NCBI GenBank assembly: GCA_900316025.1
Contig: ONBJ01000038.1
Location: 1-34,843 of the forward strand
Reading direction: 5' to 3'
Length of the DNA: 34,843 bases
Source: an uncultured Eubacteriales bacterium
Lineage (GTDB): Bacteria; Bacillota; Clostridia; Oscillospirales; Acutalibacteraceae
Positions 3,683-33,233 of the stretch are shown here, piece by piece; within the stretch, counting starts at the first letter, position 1, and every line of letters begins with the position of its first letter. Below the pieces are notes generated by a model that was given only the letters and a program-made list of their open reading frames with translations, was not told the origin of the DNA and did no database searches. A program made the position numbers and the translations under genes.

Positions 3683-3710
3683 ATTGTACAATAACTCTGT
3701 TTTTATTCAA
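3683..3710 (-). promoter_or_regulatory. Second candidate promoter of the polysaccharide operon (distal)
   Basis: On the minus strand TTGAAT at 3705-3710 and TACAAT at 3683-3688 are spaced by 16 bases. It lies about 100 bases upstream of the other candidate, which would give two tandem promoters. The 417-base gap 3439-3855 otherwise holds only AT-rich sequence and the divergent heat-shock promoter. Confidence 0.4.
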
Positions 3711-3764
3711 CGTTAATTTTTTGCTTTACGGTGTACATTAACAATTATTTTACAAATACTATCC

Positions 3765-3793
3765 TTGACAAACAGTGCAATTAGTGGTAAATT
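3765..3793 (+). promoter_or_regulatory. Sigma-A type promoter of the hrcA-dnaK operon
   Basis: A perfect TTGACA at 3765-3770 is followed after 17 bases by TAAATT at 3788-3793. The expected transcript start, near 3800, falls right at the beginning of the CIRCE operator. HrcA bound there would block initiation or early elongation. Confidence 0.75.
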
Positions 3794-3855: not shown

Positions 3856-4881
3856 TTGGAACTGCCCGCAAGAAAAAATAAAATTCTTAATGCTGTCGTT
3901 AAACAGTATATTTCCGCAGGTGAACCTGTAGGCTCTAAAGCCTTGCTCGGTCTGCTGGACTTTCCTGTTTCTTCAGCCACTGTCAGAAACGAAATGGCGG
4001 CACTGTCGGAAATGGGTTATCTCGTTCAGCCGCATACCTCAGCCGGAAGGATTCCCACTCAGCTTGGCTACAGATATTACCTCGACCATTCAATCGAGCC
4101 TGTTCAGATAGACCCCAGGGAACGCAGAGCCATTGACGATGCAATAAGTCTTTGTGCAGATGACCCCGAACATATTCTGAGCAAGGGTGCGGAGATACTT
4201 TCTCAGCTTACAGGATATGCAGCTCTCAGCACTACCCCACCTGCCGACAATACGACCATAGAGCGTATAAAGGTTGTTCAGGTAAGCCGACACACCTCAA
4301 TGATGGTTATGATAACATCTAAAGGTATGGTAAAAAACCGTCTTTTCAGATGTGACTATAATCTGGATTCAGATACACTTAAAGTTTTTGAGTTTACTCT
4401 GAACGATATGCTCTCGGGCGTAAGGCTTGACAGGATTACGCCTGCTTTTGTGCAGACCGTTGCCGTAACAAGCGGAGATGTTATGATACTTATGCCAAAA
4501 GCCCTTCTTTCTGTTATGGAGGCTGCAAGGGAAGCTTCGGTTATAAATATTGTAAGCTTTGGTCTTTCAAATCTGCTTCAGACAGGCGAATTCAATGTAG
4601 AACAACTGAAGGGAATATACAGATTTCTTCACGACAAGACAAGTCAGGAAAAGCTTCTGTTTGCAAAAAAAGGAAGAATTGCCACATATATTGGTACGGA
4701 ATCAAAAAATCCCGATATTTCTTCAACAGGCATAGCGGTTGCACATTACCCTATTCTGGGTGTGGAAGCCGGTGCATTTGCGGTAATAGGCCCTGTAAGA
4801 ATGGATTATACCGCTGCGGTTGCTTATGCCGACTATATTTCCCAGACGTGCGGAAGGCTTATTACAGAGCTTTTGGAATAA
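3856..4881 (+). CDS. hrcA: Heat-inducible transcription repressor HrcA
   Basis: Represses class I heat-shock genes by binding CIRCE; its folding depends on chaperonin in characterised species, so unfolded protein titration relieves repression. The product is 341 residues, normal for the family. The N-terminal winged helix carries ARKNKILNAVVKQYISAGEP and SSATVRNEMAALSEMGYL, followed by the HTSAGRIPT signature near residue 65. The C-terminal part is the GAF-like inducer domain. The start is TTG at 3856, preceded by AGAGGTGG at normal spacing, and no ATG fits. It is the first gene of the operon, directly downstream of a perfect CIRCE, and its stop lies only 15 bases before the likely grpE start. 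Confidence 0.97.
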   Translation: MELPARKNKILNAVVKQYISAGEPVGSKALLGLLDFPVSSATVRNEMAALSEMGYLVQPHTSAGRIPTQLGYRYYLDHSIEPVQIDPRERRAIDDAISLCADDPEHILSKGAEILSQLTGYAALSTTPPADNTTIERIKVVQVSRHTSMMVMITSKGMVKNRLFRCDYNLDSDTLKVFEFTLNDMLSGVRLDRITPAFVQTVAVTSGDVMILMPKALLSVMEAAREASVINIVSFGLSNLLQTGEFNVEQLKGIYRFLHDKTSQEKLLFAKKGRIATYIGTESKNPDISSTGIAVAHYPILGVEAGAFAVIGPVRMDYTAAVAYADYISQTCGRLITELLE

Positions 4882-5605: not shown

Positions 5606-7507
<1,902 letters not shown>

Positions 7508-7607: not shown

Positions 7608-7640
7608 GGTTCAGATATTTAAAATCAGACCATATAAAAT

Positions 7641-7728
7641 CATAAAGTTTAGGTCAAGCCTTTCCAAAGGCTTGCGGTTTCCAAAGGCAGAGCCTTTGGT
7701 GGGATTTTTAAGGGCAAAGCCCTTAAAC
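7641..7728 (+). repeat. Three-hairpin dispersed repeat, copy 2
   Basis: Same family as 5477-5565. Stems are AAGCCTTT/AAAGGCTT (loop with CC), CCAAAGGC-AGA-GCCTTTGG and TTTAAGGGC-AAA-GCCCTTAAA. It ends about 10 bases before the AGGAGG of dnaJ and lies in the direction of transcription. Confidence 0.92.
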
Positions 7729-7751
7729 TCAACTGACAGGAGGCAATTAGT

Positions 7752-8903
7752 TTGGCTGATAATAAACGAGATTATTACGAAGTTATGGGTGTTCCCAAAG
7801 GAGCGTCTGATGACGAAATCAAAAAGGCTTTCAGAAAGCTCGCAAAACAGTATCACCCCGACCTCAACCCCGGCAACAAGGAGGCTGAGGCTAAATTCAA
7901 AGAGGTCAACGAGGCTTATGAGGTTCTTTCCGATAAGGATAAAAGAGCCAGATATGACCAGTTCGGTCACGCCGGCGTAGACCCCAGCTATGGTGCAGGT
8001 GCAGCAGGCGGCAGCCCCTTCGGTCAGGGTATGAATATAGATATTGATGATATTTTCAACAGCTTCTTCGGCGGCTTCGGCGGCACAGGCAGCAGACGAC
8101 AGAATCCAAATGCCCCCAGAAAAGGCTCAAATATCGAAACTACAATTATGATTTCTTTCGAGGAAGCCGCAAAGGGCTGTAAGAAAACCGTTACATACAC
8201 TAACGAAAGTGTCTGCAACGACTGCGGCGGCTCGGGTGCTGCAAAAGGTACTTCTCCTAAGGTATGCCCAAGCTGTCACGGTACAGGTCAGGTTATGGTA
8301 AATCAGAGAACCCCCTTCGGCAACATAAGAACTTCCCGTACCTGCGATGTCTGCAAGGGTAAGGGCAGAACTGTCGATACCCCTTGCCCTACCTGTCACG
8401 GAAGCGGCAGAAAACGTACAAAGCGTACCGTTGATGTTACTATACCCGCTGGTATAAACGGCGAAATTCTTCAGGTTTCAGGTCACGGAAACGCCGGTAT
8501 CAATAACGGCCCTTACGGCGACCTTCACGTCAGAGTTGAAGTAAGACCTCACCCCATATTTGAAAGAAAAGGCGATGACGTATGGTGTGAGCTTCCTATT
8601 ACCTTTACTCAGGCGGCTCTCGGTGCTGAGGTTACCGTGCCTACCCTTGACGGCAAGGTAAGCTACAGTCTGCGTGAGGGTACTCAGCCTAATGATGTCT
8701 TTAAGCTTAAAGGCCGTGGCATAACTCACATCGGCGGAAAAACAAGAGGCGACCAGTATGTCAGAGTTGTTCTCGAAGTTCCTAAACATCTCTCACCTAA
8801 ACAAAAAGAACTCCTCAAACAACTCGACGGCATTACCACAGATAAAAATTACGGCAACAGAAACGGCTTCTTCGATAAACTTAAAACTATGTTCGGAGAA
8901 TAA
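7752..8903 (+). CDS. dnaJ: Molecular chaperone DnaJ (Hsp40)
   Basis: Type I J-protein that delivers substrates to DnaK and stimulates its ATPase. It is 383 residues long. The J domain carries the HPD motif at residues 35-37. A Gly/Phe-rich linker follows (about 75-120, with [14 protein letters not shown]). The four zinc-binding repeats are all intact: [32 protein letters not shown]. Two C-terminal beta domains and a dimerisation end complete it. The start is TTG at 7752, nine bases after GGAGG; no ATG is available in frame. It sits downstream of dnaK but is separated from it by 244 bases containing a stem-loop and a repeat, so its level may differ from that of DnaK. Confidence 0.98.
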
Positions 8904-8935: not shown

Positions 8936-9066
8936 GTGGCTATCAGCACAGGGCGGCTGCATACGACCTAAGACTTTGTCTTAGGTCATAAAAAGTGCGT
9001 AAGCACTTTTTATGCTTAATGAATTTATTCATTAAGCGTATGCAGCCGCCCTGTGCTGATAGCCAC
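8936..9066 (+). repeat. Cloverleaf inverted-repeat element A (30-bp outer stem, three inner hairpins)
   Basis: The outer arms at 8936-8965 and 9037-9066 are perfect reverse complements over 30 bases (left arm begins GTGGCTATCAGCACAGGGCG). The interior is fully used by three hairpins: 8965-8987 (GACCTAAGAC, loop TTT), 8988-9013 (ATAAAAAGTGC, loop GTAA) and 9014-9037 (GCTTAATGAA, loop TTTA). It lies 32 bases after the dnaJ stop and ends 34 bases before prmA. No ORF or known RNA fits. See elements B and C. Confidence 0.92.
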
Positions 9067-9100
9067 GTTTTATATAGCAACAAAAAAAGGATGTGTTTTT

Positions 9101-10021
9101 ATGGAATGGACGGAGGTTTCCGTAAAAGTTCCCGTTGAGCTTGTCGATATGGCAGGAGATATTGCTCAGATGGTCGTTCCCTACGGCATATATATTGAGG
9201 ATTACTCTATGCTCGAAAATGAAGTTCTTGAAATCGCCCACATAGACCTTATAGACGATGACCTTCTTAAAAAAGACCGCTCAAAGGGTATAGTTCATAT
9301 ATATATCAGTCCCGAAGATAATCCTCTTGAAGCCGTTGCCTTTCTGAAGGAGCGTTATGCCGAAAACAATATTCCGTTTGAAATAAGCATAACAGGCTGT
9401 GAGGAACAGGACTGGCTGAATAACTGGAAACAATACTTCCACCCTATTGAGGTAGGCGAAAAAATTCTTATACGACCTACATGGCGTGATAAGTATGACT
9501 CCAAGGACAGAGTTGTTCTTAACCTTGACCCCGGTCTTGCTTTCGGTACGGGTACTCACGAAACTACAAGGCTTTGTCTTGCTGCCATAGAAAAATATGT
9601 AACAAAAGACTGCGATATGCTCGATGTAGGCTGCGGAAGCGGTATTCTTTCGGTAGCGGCTCTTCTTCTCGGTGCGGAAAAAGCTGTCGGAGTTGATATT
9701 GACGAAATGGCCATAAAAACTGCAAGGGAAAATGCCGTTCTTAACGGTGTATCCGAAAAAATGACTGTCCTGAGCGGTAATCTCACCGATAAGGTAACAG
9801 GAAAATATGATATTATCGCCGCAAATATCGTGGCAGATGCAATCATTATGCTTTCAAAGGATATCAGACACTTTATGAAAGATGATTCCGTTTACATTAT
9901 GAGCGGTATTATAGATACAAGGGTTGACGATGTTCTCAACGCTATTGAGGACAGCTTCGAGATTGTTGAACAGCTTCTCGAAAACGGCTGGTACTGTCTT
10001 GTAGCCAAATCTAAAAAATAA
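9101..10021 (+). CDS. prmA: Ribosomal protein L11 methyltransferase
   Basis: SAM-dependent methyltransferase that trimethylates ribosomal protein L11. The protein has 306 residues from the ATG at 9101, which follows AAGGATG at good spacing and gives the family start MEWTEVSVKVP. The open frame extends 16 codons further upstream into the cloverleaf element, which I reject as coding. Motifs: DPGLAFGTGTHETTRLC before the SAM site, DVGCGSGILSVAALLLGA (SAM motif I), GVDIDEMAIKTA and the IAANIVADAI motif. The dnaJ-prmA order is common in Clostridia and Bacilli, and here prmA is presumably read through from the heat-shock operon unless the cloverleaf element stops transcription. Confidence 0.97.
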   Translation: MEWTEVSVKVPVELVDMAGDIAQMVVPYGIYIEDYSMLENEVLEIAHIDLIDDDLLKKDRSKGIVHIYISPEDNPLEAVAFLKERYAENNIPFEISITGCEEQDWLNNWKQYFHPIEVGEKILIRPTWRDKYDSKDRVVLNLDPGLAFGTGTHETTRLCLAAIEKYVTKDCDMLDVGCGSGILSVAALLLGAEKAVGVDIDEMAIKTARENAVLNGVSEKMTVLSGNLTDKVTGKYDIIAANIVADAIIMLSKDIRHFMKDDSVYIMSGIIDTRVDDVLNAIEDSFEIVEQLLENGWYCLVAKSKK

Positions 10022-10924: not shown

Positions 10925-11022
10925 GCGGCGATTGCAGACCGCTGCGGCATTTGCCGCAGTGAATTCAAGGCAAAGCCTTGAATTAGTCAAAAGCAAAGCT
11001 TTTGACTGTCTGCAATCGCCGC
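10925..11022 (+). repeat. Cloverleaf inverted-repeat element B (15-bp outer stem, three inner hairpins)
   Basis: The outer arms GCGGCGATTGCAGAC (10925-10939) and GTCTGCAATCGCCGC (11008-11022) pair perfectly. The inside is three hairpins: 10940-10961 (CTGCGGC, loop ATTT), 10962-10984 (AATTCAAGGC, loop AAA) and 10985-11007 (AGTCAAAAGC, loop AAA). The right arm runs into CCTTTTTT, so on the plus strand it could also end mrp transcripts. It is 34 bases after the mrp stop and shares the arm core GGCGATTGCAGAC with element C. Confidence 0.92.
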
Positions 11023-11024
11023 CC

Positions 11025-11059
11025 TTTTTTCAGAAATTTCTCTGAAATTTCTGAAAAAA
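11025..11059. repeat. Perfect AT-rich palindrome between convergent mrp and nadA
   Basis: TTTTTTCAGAAATTTC and its exact complement flank the triloop TCT, a 16-bp perfect stem. It lies between cloverleaf B and the nadA terminator. Its A and T runs supply the T tail for both neighbours, so it may serve as a bidirectional termination region for the convergent genes. Confidence 0.7.
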
Positions 11060-11092
11060 TATGCCGTATCATGCTTCGCACGATACGGCATA
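11054..11092 (-). terminator. Rho-independent terminator of nadA
   Basis: On the minus strand a 15-bp stem (11060-11092, triloop) is followed by ATTTTTT. The one plus-strand mismatch, A71/C81, becomes a G-U pair on the minus-strand RNA, which favours minus-strand function. It begins 19 bases after the nadA stop. Confidence 0.85.
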
Positions 11093-11110
11093 ACCGTAAA
11101 GCTGTAAATA

Positions 11111-16134: not shown

Positions 16135-17094
16135 ATGAATTTTCATGGTAAGGACATTAAAATTTTCGCAGGCAGTTCTACTGAGTCTGTTGCAAAGGGA
16201 ATTGCTGACAGCTTAGGACTTCCCTTAGGTCAGTCAAAATGCTGTAAGTTCAGCGACGGAGAAATTTCCGTTTCCCTTAACGAATCGGTTCGTGGTTCAG
16301 AGTGCTTTATAGTTCAGTCAACCTGCAATCCCGTAAACGACAACCTTATGGAACTTCTGATAATGATTGACGCTATGAAGCGTGCTTCTGCTGCAAGAAT
16401 AACAGCAGTTATGCCCTACTTCGGATACGCAAGACAGGACAGAAAGGCTAAACCCAGAGATCCGATTTCGGCTAAGCTTGTAGCAGACCTTATCACAGTT
16501 GCAGGTGCTGACAGAGTTCTTACAATGGATTTACACGCTAATCAGATTCAGGGCTTTTTCAATATTCCCGTTGACCATCTCATCGGAGCTCCTATCCTTG
16601 CAGAACATATGAAAGAAATGGTCGGAGATAACCAGGACGATTACATCGTAGTTTCACCCGACCTCGGCTCTGTTACACGTGCAAGAAACTTTGCAAACAA
16701 AATAGGCTGCGGTATCGCTATAGTTGACAAAAGACGTCCTAAAGCCAACGTTTCCGAAGTTATGAACATTATCGGCGATGTTAAAGACAAAAAAGTTATC
16801 CTCGTTGATGATATGATAGATACAGCAGGCACTCTCTGCAACGCAGCTGCCGCTTTAATCGAAAGAGCCGGTGCAAAGAGCGTTACAGCCTGTGCTACTC
16901 ACGGTGTACTTTCAGGCCCTGCAATAGAAAGAATTCAGAACAGCGTTATTTCTGAGGTAGTACTCCTCGACACCGTTCCTGTAGAGGGCGAAAAGCTTAT
17001 CGATAAGTTTACCGTTCTTCCCGTAGCTCCTAAATTTGCGGAAGCTATTGAGAAAATTTACGAAGACCAGCCCTTAAACAGTATTTTCGGTTAA
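16135..17094 (+). CDS. prs: Ribose-phosphate pyrophosphokinase (PRPP synthetase)
   Basis: Makes PRPP from ribose-5-phosphate and ATP for nucleotide, His, Trp and NAD synthesis. The protein has 319 residues, class I length. Motifs: FAGSSTESVAKGIADSLG and FSDGEISV at the N-terminus, the flexible-loop region MPYFGYARQDRKAKPRDPIS, the metal-binding TMDLHANQIQGFF, VVSPDLGSVTRARNFA, and the PRPP-binding VILVDDMIDTAGTL. The ATG follows TAGGAGG. It lies 48 bases after the GlmU-like gene and is probably co-transcribed with it. PRPP made here is the co-substrate of Hpt encoded elsewhere in the window. Confidence 0.98.
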   Translation: MNFHGKDIKIFAGSSTESVAKGIADSLGLPLGQSKCCKFSDGEISVSLNESVRGSECFIVQSTCNPVNDNLMELLIMIDAMKRASAARITAVMPYFGYARQDRKAKPRDPISAKLVADLITVAGADRVLTMDLHANQIQGFFNIPVDHLIGAPILAEHMKEMVGDNQDDYIVVSPDLGSVTRARNFANKIGCGIAIVDKRRPKANVSEVMNIIGDVKDKKVILVDDMIDTAGTLCNAAAALIERAGAKSVTACATHGVLSGPAIERIQNSVISEVVLLDTVPVEGEKLIDKFTVLPVAPKFAEAIEKIYEDQPLNSIFG

Positions 17095-17109
17095 TTCCGA
17101 ATAATAAAC

Positions 17110-17198
17110 CATAAAGTTTAGGTCAAGCCTTTTCAAAGGCTTGCGGTTTCCAAAGGCGGAGCCTTTGGTCAGGATTTTTAAGGGTGAAACCCTTAAAC
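17110..17198 (+). repeat. Three-hairpin dispersed repeat, copy 3
   Basis: It starts 15 bases after the prs stop. The stems are as in copy 2, but the second loop is GGA instead of AGA. In the third hairpin the loop-closing pair has changed from C-G to T-A together (GGGT-GAA-ACCC). It lies immediately upstream of the broken HAD gene. Confidence 0.92.
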
Positions 17199-17221
17199 TC
17201 TCAAAAATAAAAATTCTCATT

Positions 17222-17250
17222 CCCTCCGTATATATTTCTCTTACGGAGGG
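17222..17250 (+). other. Hairpin covering the junction before the HAD remnant
   Basis: CCCTCCGTA (17222-17230) pairs with TACGGAGGG (17242-17250). No T tract follows, so it is not a classical terminator. It may still help end prs transcripts, and it ends exactly where recognisable HAD coding sequence begins. Confidence 0.5.
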
Positions 17251-18012
17251 ATTGGAACTCTGCTGAATGATGAAAAACAAATATCTGAAATCAACCAAAA
17301 AGCCATAGATTATGCCGTAAACAAAGGGATTATCATAATACCCTGTACAGGCAGAGCCATTCAGGGTATTACCAGATTTGAAACTCTGAAAAATCTCAAC
17401 TCCCTTGCCGTTGCGTATAACGGCGGTATGATAACCAATCTTAAAGACGGAAATATTGTATATCACTGTCCGCTTACAGAAGACGATGCACAATTTATAA
17501 TAAACAAAGGTATGGAGCTTGATACCAATATCTGCGTATGGATTGACAACAGGCTTTTCTGCAATAAAATAAACGCTCATACTCTCGGATACAGCAGGAT
17601 AAGTGACGTTCCCCCGATAAAGTTTGACAGCTTATCCGATATTTCCGACAAGTCAATTACCAAAGTCCTATGGTACGATGATGAACTCAGAATACAGAGC
17701 TTTCTTAAAAATATGAGAAAAAGCTTATCGCCGCAGGTGACGTGCTGTACTTCAAAGCCGTGGTTTCTGGAGTTTTTCAACAGCAGAACTTCAAAATCGC
17801 TGGCACTTGAAAAAATATGCGGATTTTACCGTATAAATCTCAGTGAGGTTATTGCCATAGGTGACGAACTTAACGATATAAGTATGCTGAAAGCGGCAGG
17901 ACTTTCCGTTGCAGTCGAAAACGCTGTTGACGAACTGAAATTTCAGGCTGACATAATAACGGCTTCCAACAACGATGACGGCTTTTCAAAACTTGTATAT
18001 GATTTCTTTTAA
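17251..18012 (+). pseudogene. Cof-type HAD phosphatase, 5'-truncated (motif I lost)
   Basis: The frame is open and clearly HAD (Cof/YbiV group, subclass IIB): GTLLNDEKQISEINQKAIDY, motif II as PCTGR, AVAYNGGM, motif III lysine in SKSLALEKI, and motif IV GDELNDISML followed by LSVAVENAVDEL. What is missing is the start: the catalytic DxDGT is represented only by GGIGT at 17245-17259, and there is no in-frame ATG, GTG or TTG before the ATG at 17428. That ATG would give 194 residues without the nucleophile and has no good ribosome binding site. The N-terminal ~10 codons appear to have been lost at a junction with repeat copy 3. I read it as a recent pseudogene; a sequencing error is the alternative. 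Confidence 0.75.
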
Positions 18013-28399: not shown

Positions 28400-28518
28400 G
28401 TCAGCGTTCCGACAGGGCGATTGCAGACAGTCACAAGCGTTGCTTGTGACGATAACCTTAAAAGGTTATCCGTCAGCGTAAGCTGACGTGTCTGCAATCG
28501 CCCTGTCGGAACGCTGAC
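28400..28518 (-). repeat. Cloverleaf inverted-repeat element C (30-bp outer stem, three inner hairpins)
   Basis: The outer arms 28400-28429 and 28489-28518 are perfect reverse complements over 30 bases (plus-strand left arm begins GTCAGCGTTCCGACAGGGCG). Inside are three hairpins: 28430-28450 (GTCACAAGC, loop GTT), 28451-28470 (GATAACCT, loop TAAA) and 28471-28488 (CGTCAGC, loop GTAA). It lies just beyond the lysA terminator and 46 bases upstream of the rnj promoter. The orientation is nominal because the element is palindromic. Confidence 0.92.
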
Positions 28519-30584: not shown

Positions 30585-30709
30585 AGAGCCTGTTTAATAT
30601 CCTTCCACACGCATCTTTTTGGCATATTTTGCCGATAACTGCGTCAAAAATGCTCGGAATACGTCAGTATTCCTGTGCTTTGCATATGTCAAGATACTAA
30701 ACAGGCTCT
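30585..30709 (-). mobile_element. MITE-like inverted-repeat element between lon and engB
   Basis: The ends AGAGCCTGTTTAATATC (30585-30601) and GATACTAAACAGGCTCT (30693-30709) pair at 16 of 17 positions. The interior holds smaller dyads: GGAATAC-GTCA-GTATTCC, and GGCATATTTTGCC nested inside GCAT-TTTTTG / CAAAAATGC. It has no ORF. It looks like a small non-autonomous element; I do not know its parent transposase. It lies 30 bases upstream of the engB start. Confidence 0.7.
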
Positions 30710-30721
30710 AAAGCTTAAAAA

Positions 30722-30807
30722 CATAAAGTTTAGGTCAAGCCTTTTCAAAGGCTTGCGGGTCGAGGGCAGAGCCCTCGTCAGGATTTTTAAGGGTGAAACC
30801 CTTAAAC
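30722..30807 (+). repeat. Three-hairpin dispersed repeat, copy 6 (divergent, opposite orientation)
   Basis: This is the only copy running against the adjacent genes: its 3' end lies 2 bases from the lon stop. Hairpin 1 is standard. Hairpin 2 is CGAGGGC-AGA-GCCCTCG, with two paired A-T positions changed to G-C on both sides. Hairpin 3 has the T-A loop closure seen in copy 3. Confidence 0.9.
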
Positions 30808-30809
30808 AC

Positions 30810-33233
30810 TTACGGAAATATCTTTTCGGTAATTACGGGAACGGAATCCAGCTTTTTCACAAGCTTGCTTTTCTCGTCCTTTTCGGCAGGCATAAGTGCT
30901 GCTTCAAGAACCTGATCTATACCCGAAACAGGTCTGAACTCCAGAGCTGACTTTACAACAGGGTCTACCTCATACAAATCCGAAACATTTCCCTCAGGTA
31001 TTATAACAGTCTTTATTCCTACCCTGTATGCCGCCATACTCTTTTCCTTTAGTCCGCCTATGGGAAGTACCCTTCCTCTGAGCGTTATTTCGCCCGTCAT
31101 AGCTACATCTCTTCTTACAGGTCTGTTCGTGAGTGCCGAGATTATAGCCGTAGTCATCGTTATACCTGCTGACGGCCCGTCCTTAGGCACTGCACCTTCG
31201 GGGGCGTGAATGTGAATATCATTCTTCTGGTAGAAATCAGCGTCAAACTTCATCTTGTCCGCCATTGTTCTCGCACAGCTCAGAGCTATCTTTGCCGACT
31301 CCTTCATAACATCTCCCAGCGAACCCGTAAGCTCGATTTTTCCCGTACCTTTAAGCAACGCTACTTCTATAGGCAAAGTAGTTCCGCCAACAGCAGTCCA
31401 AGCAAGACCGTTCACAACTCCTACCATATTTTCCTTCTCTATGGTTTCGGGCTTGTACTTTCTAGGACCGAGAAAATCTTCCATATTTTTAAGCGTAACC
31501 GAAATTTTATACTCCTCGTCCTCAACTATATGCACCGCTGTTTTCCTGAGGAGGTCATTTATCCTTCTTTCAAGATTTCTTACTCCTGCTTCTCTTGTGT
31601 AGCTGTCTATGAGGTCATAGAGTGCATTTTTCGTTATCCTGAACTGACTTGCCTTTATTCCGCTGTTTTTGAGCGACTTCGGAACAAGATGCTTCTGTGC
31701 TATATTGAATTTTTCCTGACGTGTATAGCTGTCGATATGTATTATATCCATTCTGTCCAGCAGCGGTTCGGGTATTGCGGAATAGTCGTTCGCCGTAGCT
31801 ATGAACAGTACCCTGCTGAGGTCATACGGCAGATCTATATAGTGGTCTGTGAACGAATTGTTCTGCTCGCTGTCAAGAACTTCAAGCAAAGCCGATGTCG
31901 GGTCACCCTTGTAGTCGCTGCCCAGCTTGTCTATCTCGTCAAGTATCATTACGGGATTTGAAGTTCCTGCAAGCTTTATGGCATTCATTATTCTTCCCGG
32001 CATTGAACCCAGATACGTTCTTCTGTGTCCTCTTATTTCGGATTCATCGTGTACTCCGCCAAGTGCTATACGCTGACATTTTCTGTTTATCGCCTTTGCT
32101 ATCGACTGTGCTATAGATGTTTTTCCAACTCCGGGAGGGCCTACAAAGCAAAGTATCTGTCCCTTTACGTCAGGCGAAAGCTTTCTCACCGCAAGAGCTT
32201 CGATTATCCTTTCCTTTACCTTTGAAAGTCCGTAATGGTTTTTCTCCAGAATATTCTTTGCATAGTCTATGTCAATTACTTCTTCATCAAAAGTATTCCA
32301 CGGCAGTTCCAGACAAACGTCAAGGTATGAGCGTACCACATTAGCCTCCTGCGAACCGAACGGCAATGCCGCAAGCTTGTCGCATTCCCTCATAAGAACC
32401 TTTTTCACATCGTCCGCAAGCTCCAGAGAATTTATTTTGTCAACATATTCCTTGACATCTCCGTCAAAATCATCTGCCATATTCAGCTCTTCTTCTATGA
32501 CCTTGAGCTGCTCCCTGAGATAATACTCCCTCTGATGCTCGTCTATTCTTTCACGGGTCATTCTGTGTACGGAATCCTCAACCTCAAGAATGAAAATCTC
32601 GTCCGTAAGATGTGCTATCAGAGCTTCCATACGCTCGTCAACCTCTGCCGCCTCGAGTATTTCCTGCTTCATTTCGTATTCCATTCTTGTGTTGCTTGCG
32701 ATATAGTCACACACCTTGCCCGTATCCTTGGTTGTGGCTACCTTGTATATTATATCGGGCGGAAATTTCGGAACTACCGACAGATACCTCTCAAACAAAT
32801 CCTTGAGCGACCTCATAAGACCTATTTCTATCGAACTGTCTGCGTGAATATCCTCAACACGGCTTACCATTCCCGTGAGATACTTCTTCTTTCTTTTTCC
32901 CTCCGATAAAACCTTTGCACGGTATTTACCCTCTATTACAACACGTATTATATTGTCAGGCTGTCTTACTATCTGCTTTATTTCCGCAACTACTCCCGTA
33001 CTGTACAAATCATCTACTTCGGGACTGTCTATTGCAGTATCAATCTGTGCAGATACAAATATTTTCTGGTCGGTTTCCATTGCCTTTTCTATGGCAAGTG
33101 CGGAAATCTTCCTCCCTACATCAAAATGCAGCAGCATCTCGGGAAATACTACCATACCCCTTAATGCCAGAACAGGCATTTCCTTTGCTTCTTCAGCTAT
33201 TTCGGTTTCTTCGTTATTCTTTTTCATTTCCAT
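30810..33233 (-). CDS. lon: ATP-dependent serine protease Lon
   Basis: AAA+ protease that degrades damaged and regulatory proteins in the cytoplasm. The protein has 807 residues, normal for LonA. The N-terminal LON substrate-binding domain (about 18-220) begins PVLALRGMVVFPEMLLHFDV. A coiled-coil helical region follows (REYYLREQLKVIEEELN). Walker A GPPGVGKT is at 365-372, with RIALGGVHDESEIRGHRRTY and MILDEIDKLG after it. The S16 protease domain carries the catalytic Ser688 in KDGPSAGIT and Lys731 in GGLKEKS. The start ATG lies 11 bases after GGGAGG. Order clpX-lon-engB matches Bacillus clpX-lonB-lonA-ysxC except that lonB is absent. Confidence 0.98.
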   Translation of the reverse strand: MEMKKNNEETEIAEEAKEMPVLALRGMVVFPEMLLHFDVGRKISALAIEKAMETDQKIFVSAQIDTAIDSPEVDDLYSTGVVAEIKQIVRQPDNIIRVVIEGKYRAKVLSEGKRKKKYLTGMVSRVEDIHADSSIEIGLMRSLKDLFERYLSVVPKFPPDIIYKVATTKDTGKVCDYIASNTRMEYEMKQEILEAAEVDERMEALIAHLTDEIFILEVEDSVHRMTRERIDEHQREYYLREQLKVIEEELNMADDFDGDVKEYVDKINSLELADDVKKVLMRECDKLAALPFGSQEANVVRSYLDVCLELPWNTFDEEVIDIDYAKNILEKNHYGLSKVKERIIEALAVRKLSPDVKGQILCFVGPPGVGKTSIAQSIAKAINRKCQRIALGGVHDESEIRGHRRTYLGSMPGRIMNAIKLAGTSNPVMILDEIDKLGSDYKGDPTSALLEVLDSEQNNSFTDHYIDLPYDLSRVLFIATANDYSAIPEPLLDRMDIIHIDSYTRQEKFNIAQKHLVPKSLKNSGIKASQFRITKNALYDLIDSYTREAGVRNLERRINDLLRKTAVHIVEDEEYKISVTLKNMEDFLGPRKYKPETIEKENMVGVVNGLAWTAVGGTTLPIEVALLKGTGKIELTGSLGDVMKESAKIALSCARTMADKMKFDADFYQKNDIHIHAPEGAVPKDGPSAGITMTTAIISALTNRPVRRDVAMTGEITLRGRVLPIGGLKEKSMAAYRVGIKTVIIPEGNVSDLYEVDPVVKSALEFRPVSGIDQVLEAALMPAEKDEKSKLVKKLDSVPVITEKIFP

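Follow-up and report, generated by a model that had tools for sequence, protein, structure and literature searches.

Dispersed intergenic repeats with a three-hairpin cloverleaf plan and jointly changing arms in two uncultured Acutalibacteraceae species

The contig ONBJ01000038.1 of an uncultured Eubacteriales bacterium (assembly GCA_900316025.1; its 34,843 nucleotides are referred to as the window) carries an element, A, in which an outer stem encloses three hairpins. A lies between a gene that we take, from its translation, to encode a DnaJ-like protein and an open reading frame (ORF) presumably encoding a PrmA-like protein. Two further elements, B and C, lie in the same window (Table 1), and all three belong to a large family of repeats found in this genome and in that of a sister species. 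The 30-nt arms of A, 8936-8965 and 9037-9066, are 100% complementary. Predicted folds of A as DNA and as RNA agree: the outer stem has 29 bp, and the three hairpins (10, 11 and 10 bp; loops TTT, GTAA and TTTA) stand back to back at a junction without any unpaired base. An earlier note on this DNA had described this arrangement of hairpins correctly and had given the outer stem as 30 perfect base pairs; the complementarity stands, and 29 bp is the consistent count because forming the 30th pair would compete with pairing at the foot of hairpins 1 and 3. Folding z-scores are -18.9 (DNA) and -19.2 (RNA), and none of 200 shuffles in each case was equally stable. The ATG at 9101 is a likelier start for the PrmA-like ORF than the GTG within A.

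Table 1. Positions of elements A, B and C and the genes around A in the window, and of the copies in genome G034 of another genus.
Feature	Position	Strand or orientation	Remarks
Gene upstream of A (presumably DnaJ-like)	7752..8903	+	32 nt separate its stop from the outer arm, and 49 nt from the core
A, left outer arm	8936..8964		29 bp paired in the predicted fold; core GCGGCTGCATAC at 8953-8964
A, hairpin 1	8965..8987		10 bp, loop TTT
A, middle hairpin	8988..9013		11 bp, loop GTAA
A, hairpin 3	9014..9037		10 bp, loop TTTA
A, right outer arm	9038..9066		from arm complementarity and fold
ORF downstream of A (presumably PrmA-like)	9053..10021	+	listed GTG start inside A
Element B	10925..11022		core stem GCGGCGATTGCAGAC / GTCTGCAATCGCCGC; between convergent genes
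B, hairpins	10940-10961, 10962-10984, 10985-11007		parsed plan
Element C	28400..28518		30-bp perfect outer arms
C, hairpins	28430-28450, 28451-28470, 28471-28488		parsed plan
G034 copies	L429:12033, L429:15123, L451:8565	both interior orientations	outer stem and three hairpins

The outer stem contains a recurrent core word, GCGATTGCAG(AC), by which the family can be traced. In the window's own genome (G000; 2.08 Mb in 98 contigs), each strand has 144 occurrences of the 10-mer GCGATTGCAG; the sister species (G005) has 144 and 149 on its two strands, and four other genomes of the genus (G001-G004) have 0-4 per strand. Among 100 core sites listed from G000, 92 are arranged as 46 inverted pairs and 8 stand alone, which together with the 144 words per strand gives an estimate of about 130 copies. 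A pattern that requires the paired outer core found 53 copies in G000 and none with a reversed control, and it matched only G000 and G005 among 98 genomes, 79 of which have a completeness of 90% or more and a contamination of 5% or less. Thus two of the six genomes of the genus carry the family. A contig-wide scan with a pattern that does not enforce pairing returned at least 119 stretches; among those listed, a script check found real copies solely in the stretches of G005. DNA uptake sequences are short many-copy words with many unpaired copies, and this identity is rejected by the inverted pairing of 92 of the 100 listed core words. The eight unpaired words (C5:10481, C7:2685, C16:62958, C18:6336, C24:29384, C25:2139, C29:49693 and C34:9977) are possibly relics, copies with one changed arm, or the ends of a longer parent element. 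A search of 50,697 phage records and 72,556 plasmid records with one typical copy (L264) gave no match, and a phage or plasmid element is rejected on this basis. A scan of viral contigs gave 115 stretches with one real copy, at L164:11215-11307 on a contig filed as viral in IMG/VR; this copy is identical to L264, which may mean that the contig is a prophage or that it belongs to the host and was mis-filed.

All 100 copies that were parsed (50 from each species) consist of a 12-bp core stem enclosing three hairpins with 0-3 unpaired bases per gap, and a bulge splits one stem in two of them (L265:6305 and L276:2515). Since the parser itself seeks three hairpins, a sequence-free layout search carries more weight. 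In stretches chosen around copies, it found 49 structures in G000 and 52 in G005; 140 kb of G001 and 140 kb of G004 gave none, nor did shuffled versions of all four sets. Wider settings yielded 56 and 64 three-hairpin structures in G000 and G005, one two-hairpin structure in each and no four-hairpin structure in either; exactly three hairpins is therefore the rule. The long outer stem, in contrast, is a feature of A and C, and the general element has a core stem of 12-13 bp: 17 further perfect pairs are found in 2 of the 100 copies (A and C), 84 have 0-2 such pairs, and flanks outside the core pair on average no better than re-paired controls. The cloverleaf core measures about 96 bp, and the unit including flanks about 150 bp. 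B and C were parsed to the same four-stem plan as A, the hairpins of C being shorter (9, 8 and 7 bp).

The hairpins of A are almost unrelated in sequence to those of B and C, as the earlier note had it; across the family, hairpins fall into recurring related types, namely K (AAAAGC-rich), AT-rich middle and GC-rich. Interiors occur in both orientations (29 K5, 44 K3), and a GGCTTCGC-like tail accompanies the K side in 31 copies and the opposite side in 6, while 56 have it on neither. For the three hairpins, 31, 55 and 45 different outer 8-nt arms were counted. Even so, own arms pair at 97-99% of positions (98.7, 98.1 and 97.3%), against 50-64% for arms swapped between copies (63.9, 51.0 and 49.8%). 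This pairing, together with the many double changes between the two species described below, confirms A as a member of a large structure-conserved family. The copies are not unique chance palindromes, and a search of the window at gathering score places none in a known Rfam family.

In all, 42 orthologous copies were compared between G000 and G005 (32 pairs, 9 found by gene flanks, and A itself). Stem pairs were those of the best-scoring G000 stems, with 24 gapped pairs set aside, and orthologous loci with unusually similar flanks (98.7% at L276:10002, 95-96% at L272) were retained. Among 1,207 stem pairs, 1,130 are unchanged, in 47 both partners have changed and still form a Watson-Crick pair, and 30 are changed on one side or are non-Watson-Crick in one species. 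Independent change of the arms would give 3.2 both-sided changes. The 77 changed pairs amount to 6.4%, as compared with 51% expected at the rate of 4-fold sites. Divergence between the species is 30% at 4-fold sites, 36% at loop sites (107 of 298, loops of unequal length in 17 of 126 hairpins being left out) and 20% at flank sites, and hence the stems are constrained and the loops free. Core sites differ at 4 of 720 positions, a figure in which the core is also the search handle and four core sides that failed to align are excluded. Checked by eye, 31 of the first 32 pairs come from loci fetched for the core pattern or its surroundings, and the set thus favours copies with an intact core. For A itself, as we read its alignment with G005, paired changes number six: the outer arm has two, the core three and the middle hairpin one. 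Two further changes are one-sided, and loops are altered as well. The element was not found in the dnaJ-prmA gap of G004.

The earlier note took the self-complementarity of hairpins almost unrelated in sequence to imply selection on the fold, and it proposed a four-way junction bound by a protein, or a structured RNA, both of them hypothetical. Covariation by itself is not proof of such selection, because double changes with scarce G-T pairs and inversions of loops and of an interior point to DNA template switching as a source of paired changes. Template switching during replication is described as yielding multi-base compensatory changes in one event, along with loop inversions, in rRNA hairpins (accessible part of PMC8794818), and homogenized arms and inverted spacers have likewise been ascribed to it (accessible part of PMC8604942). 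The rRNA case is similar in both kinds of change and differs in being a mutation pattern in rRNA genes rather than a repeat with more than 100 copies in one genome. Several observations in the family are of this kind. Transversions make up 20 of the 47 double changes and speak for DNA copying, since they have no wobble intermediate. Internal mismatches on the sense strand number 1 G-T, 2 A-C and 3 others in 2,336 element positions, against 13 G-T, 2 A-C and 7 others in 424 positions of 36 terminator-like hairpins (p = 3e-10 for G-T), the latter taken from loci of four genomes under an internal-mismatch rule close, not identical, to that used for the elements. One of the 42 pairs has its whole interior inverted between like flanks (L270:6982 in G000, L305:10241 in G005), and the sidedness of the GGCTTCGC-like tail described above is counted here too. 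In the first 32 pairs, 49 loops have changed; the inverse form is the nearer one for 24 and the direct form for 15, with 10 equal.

It could be argued that pairing is entirely a by-product of mutation, with template switching keeping the arms matched without selection. The double changes, the loop inversions, the inverted interior and the precedent in rRNA hairpins (accessible part of PMC8794818) would fit such a process. It predicts near-neutral change of the stems, however, and the observed double changes reach 3.9% per pair, compared with 30% at 4-fold sites and 20% in flanks. Pure mutational upkeep is disfavoured by this low stem divergence, and we consider it very improbable. Template switching by itself cannot account for slow stems, and we therefore add selection; it is the conservation of stems far beyond that of loops, flanks and 4-fold sites, not covariation, that argues for selection on the fold.

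The copies are biased towards the 3´ side of genes and avoid divergent gaps. With gene positions from our own ORF calls, 117 copies were located (100 by pattern and 17 more by structure): 94 lie between co-directional genes, 14 between convergent and 4 between divergent genes, and 5 at locus edges. Of 112 copies, 4 are in divergent gaps, a deficit (p = 0.0003) relative to these loci as a whole, where 54 of 333 gaps with a length of 100 nt or more are divergent; the background gaps include those with copies. In the 94 co-directional gaps, the median distance from the upstream stop to the core is 38 nt and that from the core to the start of the following gene 71.5 nt, the stop being the closer of the two in 77. 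An alternative view is that the elements work as DNA, providing cruciform or four-way-junction sites about once per 15 kb for a nucleoid or recombination protein (HU- and RuvA-like proteins are example candidates), with selection for Watson-Crick arms. Such a role would suit the near absence of internal G-T pairs, the similar frequencies of G-T and A-C on the sense strand (11 and 8 of 2,511), the recurrence of GCGATTGCAG (subject to its use as the search handle) and the presence of both orientations. On the other hand, the bias towards the 3´ side of genes and the avoidance of divergent gaps suit transcripts better, and the scarcity of G-T is equally explained by template switching, leaving a function at the DNA level unlikely.

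Presence and absence at orthologous gaps bear on how the copies spread. The gap corresponding to that of C, which is flanked by two minus-strand genes, is empty in G005. At 17 further G000 sites, the element is present in G005 in 9 cases and probably in 1 more (L277); reading by eye, 4 sites are empty (L261, L278 and both L268 sites). At L276:3541 a single core arm remains as a one-armed relic, at L276:2515 one flank aligned with no element in the 260 nt shown, and the L274 site is at a contig end. These empty sites, together with terminal inverted repeats on a short many-copy unit, are features of miniature inverted-repeat transposable elements (MITEs). One possibility, which we likewise regard as unlikely, is that the family is a non-autonomous MITE kept by mobility alone, without any role for the host, its hairpins being needed by a transposase or in a single-stranded DNA intermediate. 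The inverted core ends, the dispersal, the empty sites and the restriction to two of six genomes of the genus agree with this. Fixed orthologues should then decay like their flanks, however, and 6.4% of stem pairs have changed against 20% of flank sites. The diversity of paralogues, with 31, 55 and 45 distinct outer arms, also argues against it, as does the failure to find a Y1 transposase (other transposases were not sought); no target-site duplication was seen by eye at the blurred borders of the unit.

The reading we prefer, and to which we give an even chance of being right, is that of a MITE-like intercistronic repeat, placed mostly just past stop codons, in which selection acts on the hairpins and DNA template switching rewrites the arms. 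Copies would have spread in the common ancestor of the two species, and after insertion the hairpins would be maintained by purifying selection. Read out in the 3´ part of an mRNA, the element may act as a series of hairpins that blocks 3´ exonucleases or the read-through from one operon gene to the next, a role modelled on proposals for REP/BIME elements. A mutation in one arm would be copied to the other by template switching on a DNA hairpin, such that both sides change in one step, the loop may be inverted and few G-T pairs are left. A more tentative version has the elements as self-proofreading palindromes, i.e. four-way-junction elements across the chromosome whose Watson-Crick arms are continually rewritten in situ by template switching and cruciform inversion, with selection preserving the plan of an outer stem plus exactly three hairpins.

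Several results weigh against the preferred reading, some against its mutational part. Transitions account for 27 of the 47 double changes, compared with 42% at 4-fold sites (p = 0.04), which fits stepwise change through G-U. A coarser count that includes the pairs at the foot of the hairpins gives 11 G-T, 8 A-C and 28 other mismatches in 2,511. Exact loop inverses are only moderate evidence: they make up 9 of the 67 loops that changed, whereas shuffling gives 4.4 on average and reaches 9 in 33 of 2,000 rounds. Inverted loops are no commoner in hairpins with double changes (7 inverted and 7 direct) than in those without (13 and 14), in a comparison without the 37 of 126 hairpins of unequal length. 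Ordinary hairpins compared between the species, a small control with 17 mapped and 65 unmapped, also show mostly double changes (10 versus 3). As for mobility, Y1 transposase (PF01797) had no match in G000, G005, G003 or G004 and has matches in G001 and G002, and no target-site duplication was seen by eye at C and the four empty sites, where the unit borders are blurred. The RNA-barrier role, the most likely one, is suggested by location, and U-runs show no clear enrichment: of 79 copies, 30 have TTTT within 40 nt downstream and 24 have it upstream, the figures for TTTTT being 17 and 13. The elements are therefore not ordinary terminators, and a plain intrinsic terminator is rejected for want of a clear U-run excess behind the hairpins on the sense strand; individual copies may act as such.

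Comparison with known systems points the same way as the earlier note, which knew of no element with this layout; we found none described in the open-access literature, a coverage that takes in few subscription journals. Rfam gave no match at gathering score in the window, which rejects a known RNA family, and the best weak match near A had an E-value of 0.35 and 23.8 bits against a cut-off of 57. ARAGORN found no tRNA or tmRNA gene in the window, and a tRNA or tmRNA cloverleaf is rejected on that result. Repetitive extragenic palindromes (REPs) are 20-40 bp long with a GTAG or CGTC tag, and roles in supercoiling, termination and mRNA stabilization have been hypothesized for them (accessible part of PMC3733652). 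The family resembles the REP/REPIN-RAYT system in being palindromic and extragenic and differs in its core, GCGATTGCAG, in its size of about 96-150 bp and in the lack of Y1_Tnp in G000 and G005, on which ground a Y1/RAYT transposase is rejected as the mover. In the accessible part of PMC2267715, repeat families such as Efa-1 of Enterococcus faecalis (163 bp, two adjacent stem-loops) and ERIC (one long stem-loop) are predicted to fold on both strands, as the present one is; the family differs in placing three hairpins within an outer stem. The bcr1-bcr3 repeats of the Bacillus cereus group (bcr1, 167 and 147 bp) belong to another lineage and are likened here by description, not by sequence, and the same part of the source reports no three-hairpin plan with variable but paired arms. 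Dispersed structured repeats behind genes are a known kind; the fixed three-hairpin plan, the copy number and the visible rewriting of arms set this family apart.

The same plan appears in another genus. A layout search of 515 kb of stretches from 38 further genomes of the bacterial family, one per genus, found two copies, both in G034; a pattern search added a third, which the layout search also recovers (Table 1). Their core is GGCGAGC with variants, and their hairpins differ from those of the G000 family, although the middle hairpin has TTTCAAGG in common with several G000-family copies. Five congeners of G034 gave no copies in 20 kb each. The G034 core pattern with a longer gap was run on 10 genomes, and its matches in two G034 congeners and in G014 were rejected by eye as not being folded copies. 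If the elements are indeed self-proofreading palindromes, the recurrence of this plan in a second genus, where the core is another and most of the hairpins differ, would imply that conservation acts on the plan rather than on the sequence. With more than 100 copies per genome and orthologues in a sister species, the manner in which paired arms change, in two steps via a weak pair or in one copying event, becomes measurable in a bacterium. Behind many genes of these two uncultured species, this large intercistronic repeat, of which no description was found in the open-access literature, may also determine where transcripts end or how stable they are.

Some minor observations concern the surroundings of the copies. 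The convergent gene beyond B is presumably nadA-like, and G005 has a B-like copy, read in its left part alone, on the nadA side, with about 2 kb of extra DNA between both genes. Directly behind B and before the nadA-like gene, at 11025-11093, lie two more perfect hairpins, TTTTTTCAGAAATTTC... and TATGCCGTATC...GATACGGCATA. Three adjoining perfect hairpins beyond the listed copies are found in L254 near 4067-4140, identical in G005; they may form a further copy whose outer stem differs. Intergenic gaps also contain a second palindromic repeat, likewise dispersed, with CCAAAGGCTCTGCCTTTGG- and CAAGCCTTTGAAAAGGCTTG-like hairpins in a row followed by GACCTAAAC; it was noticed as recurring peptide strings in ORFs at about 7611-7970, 17074-17580 and 30675-30950 of the window, and clear copies lie in L257 near 7141-7213 and L284 near 3694-3767.
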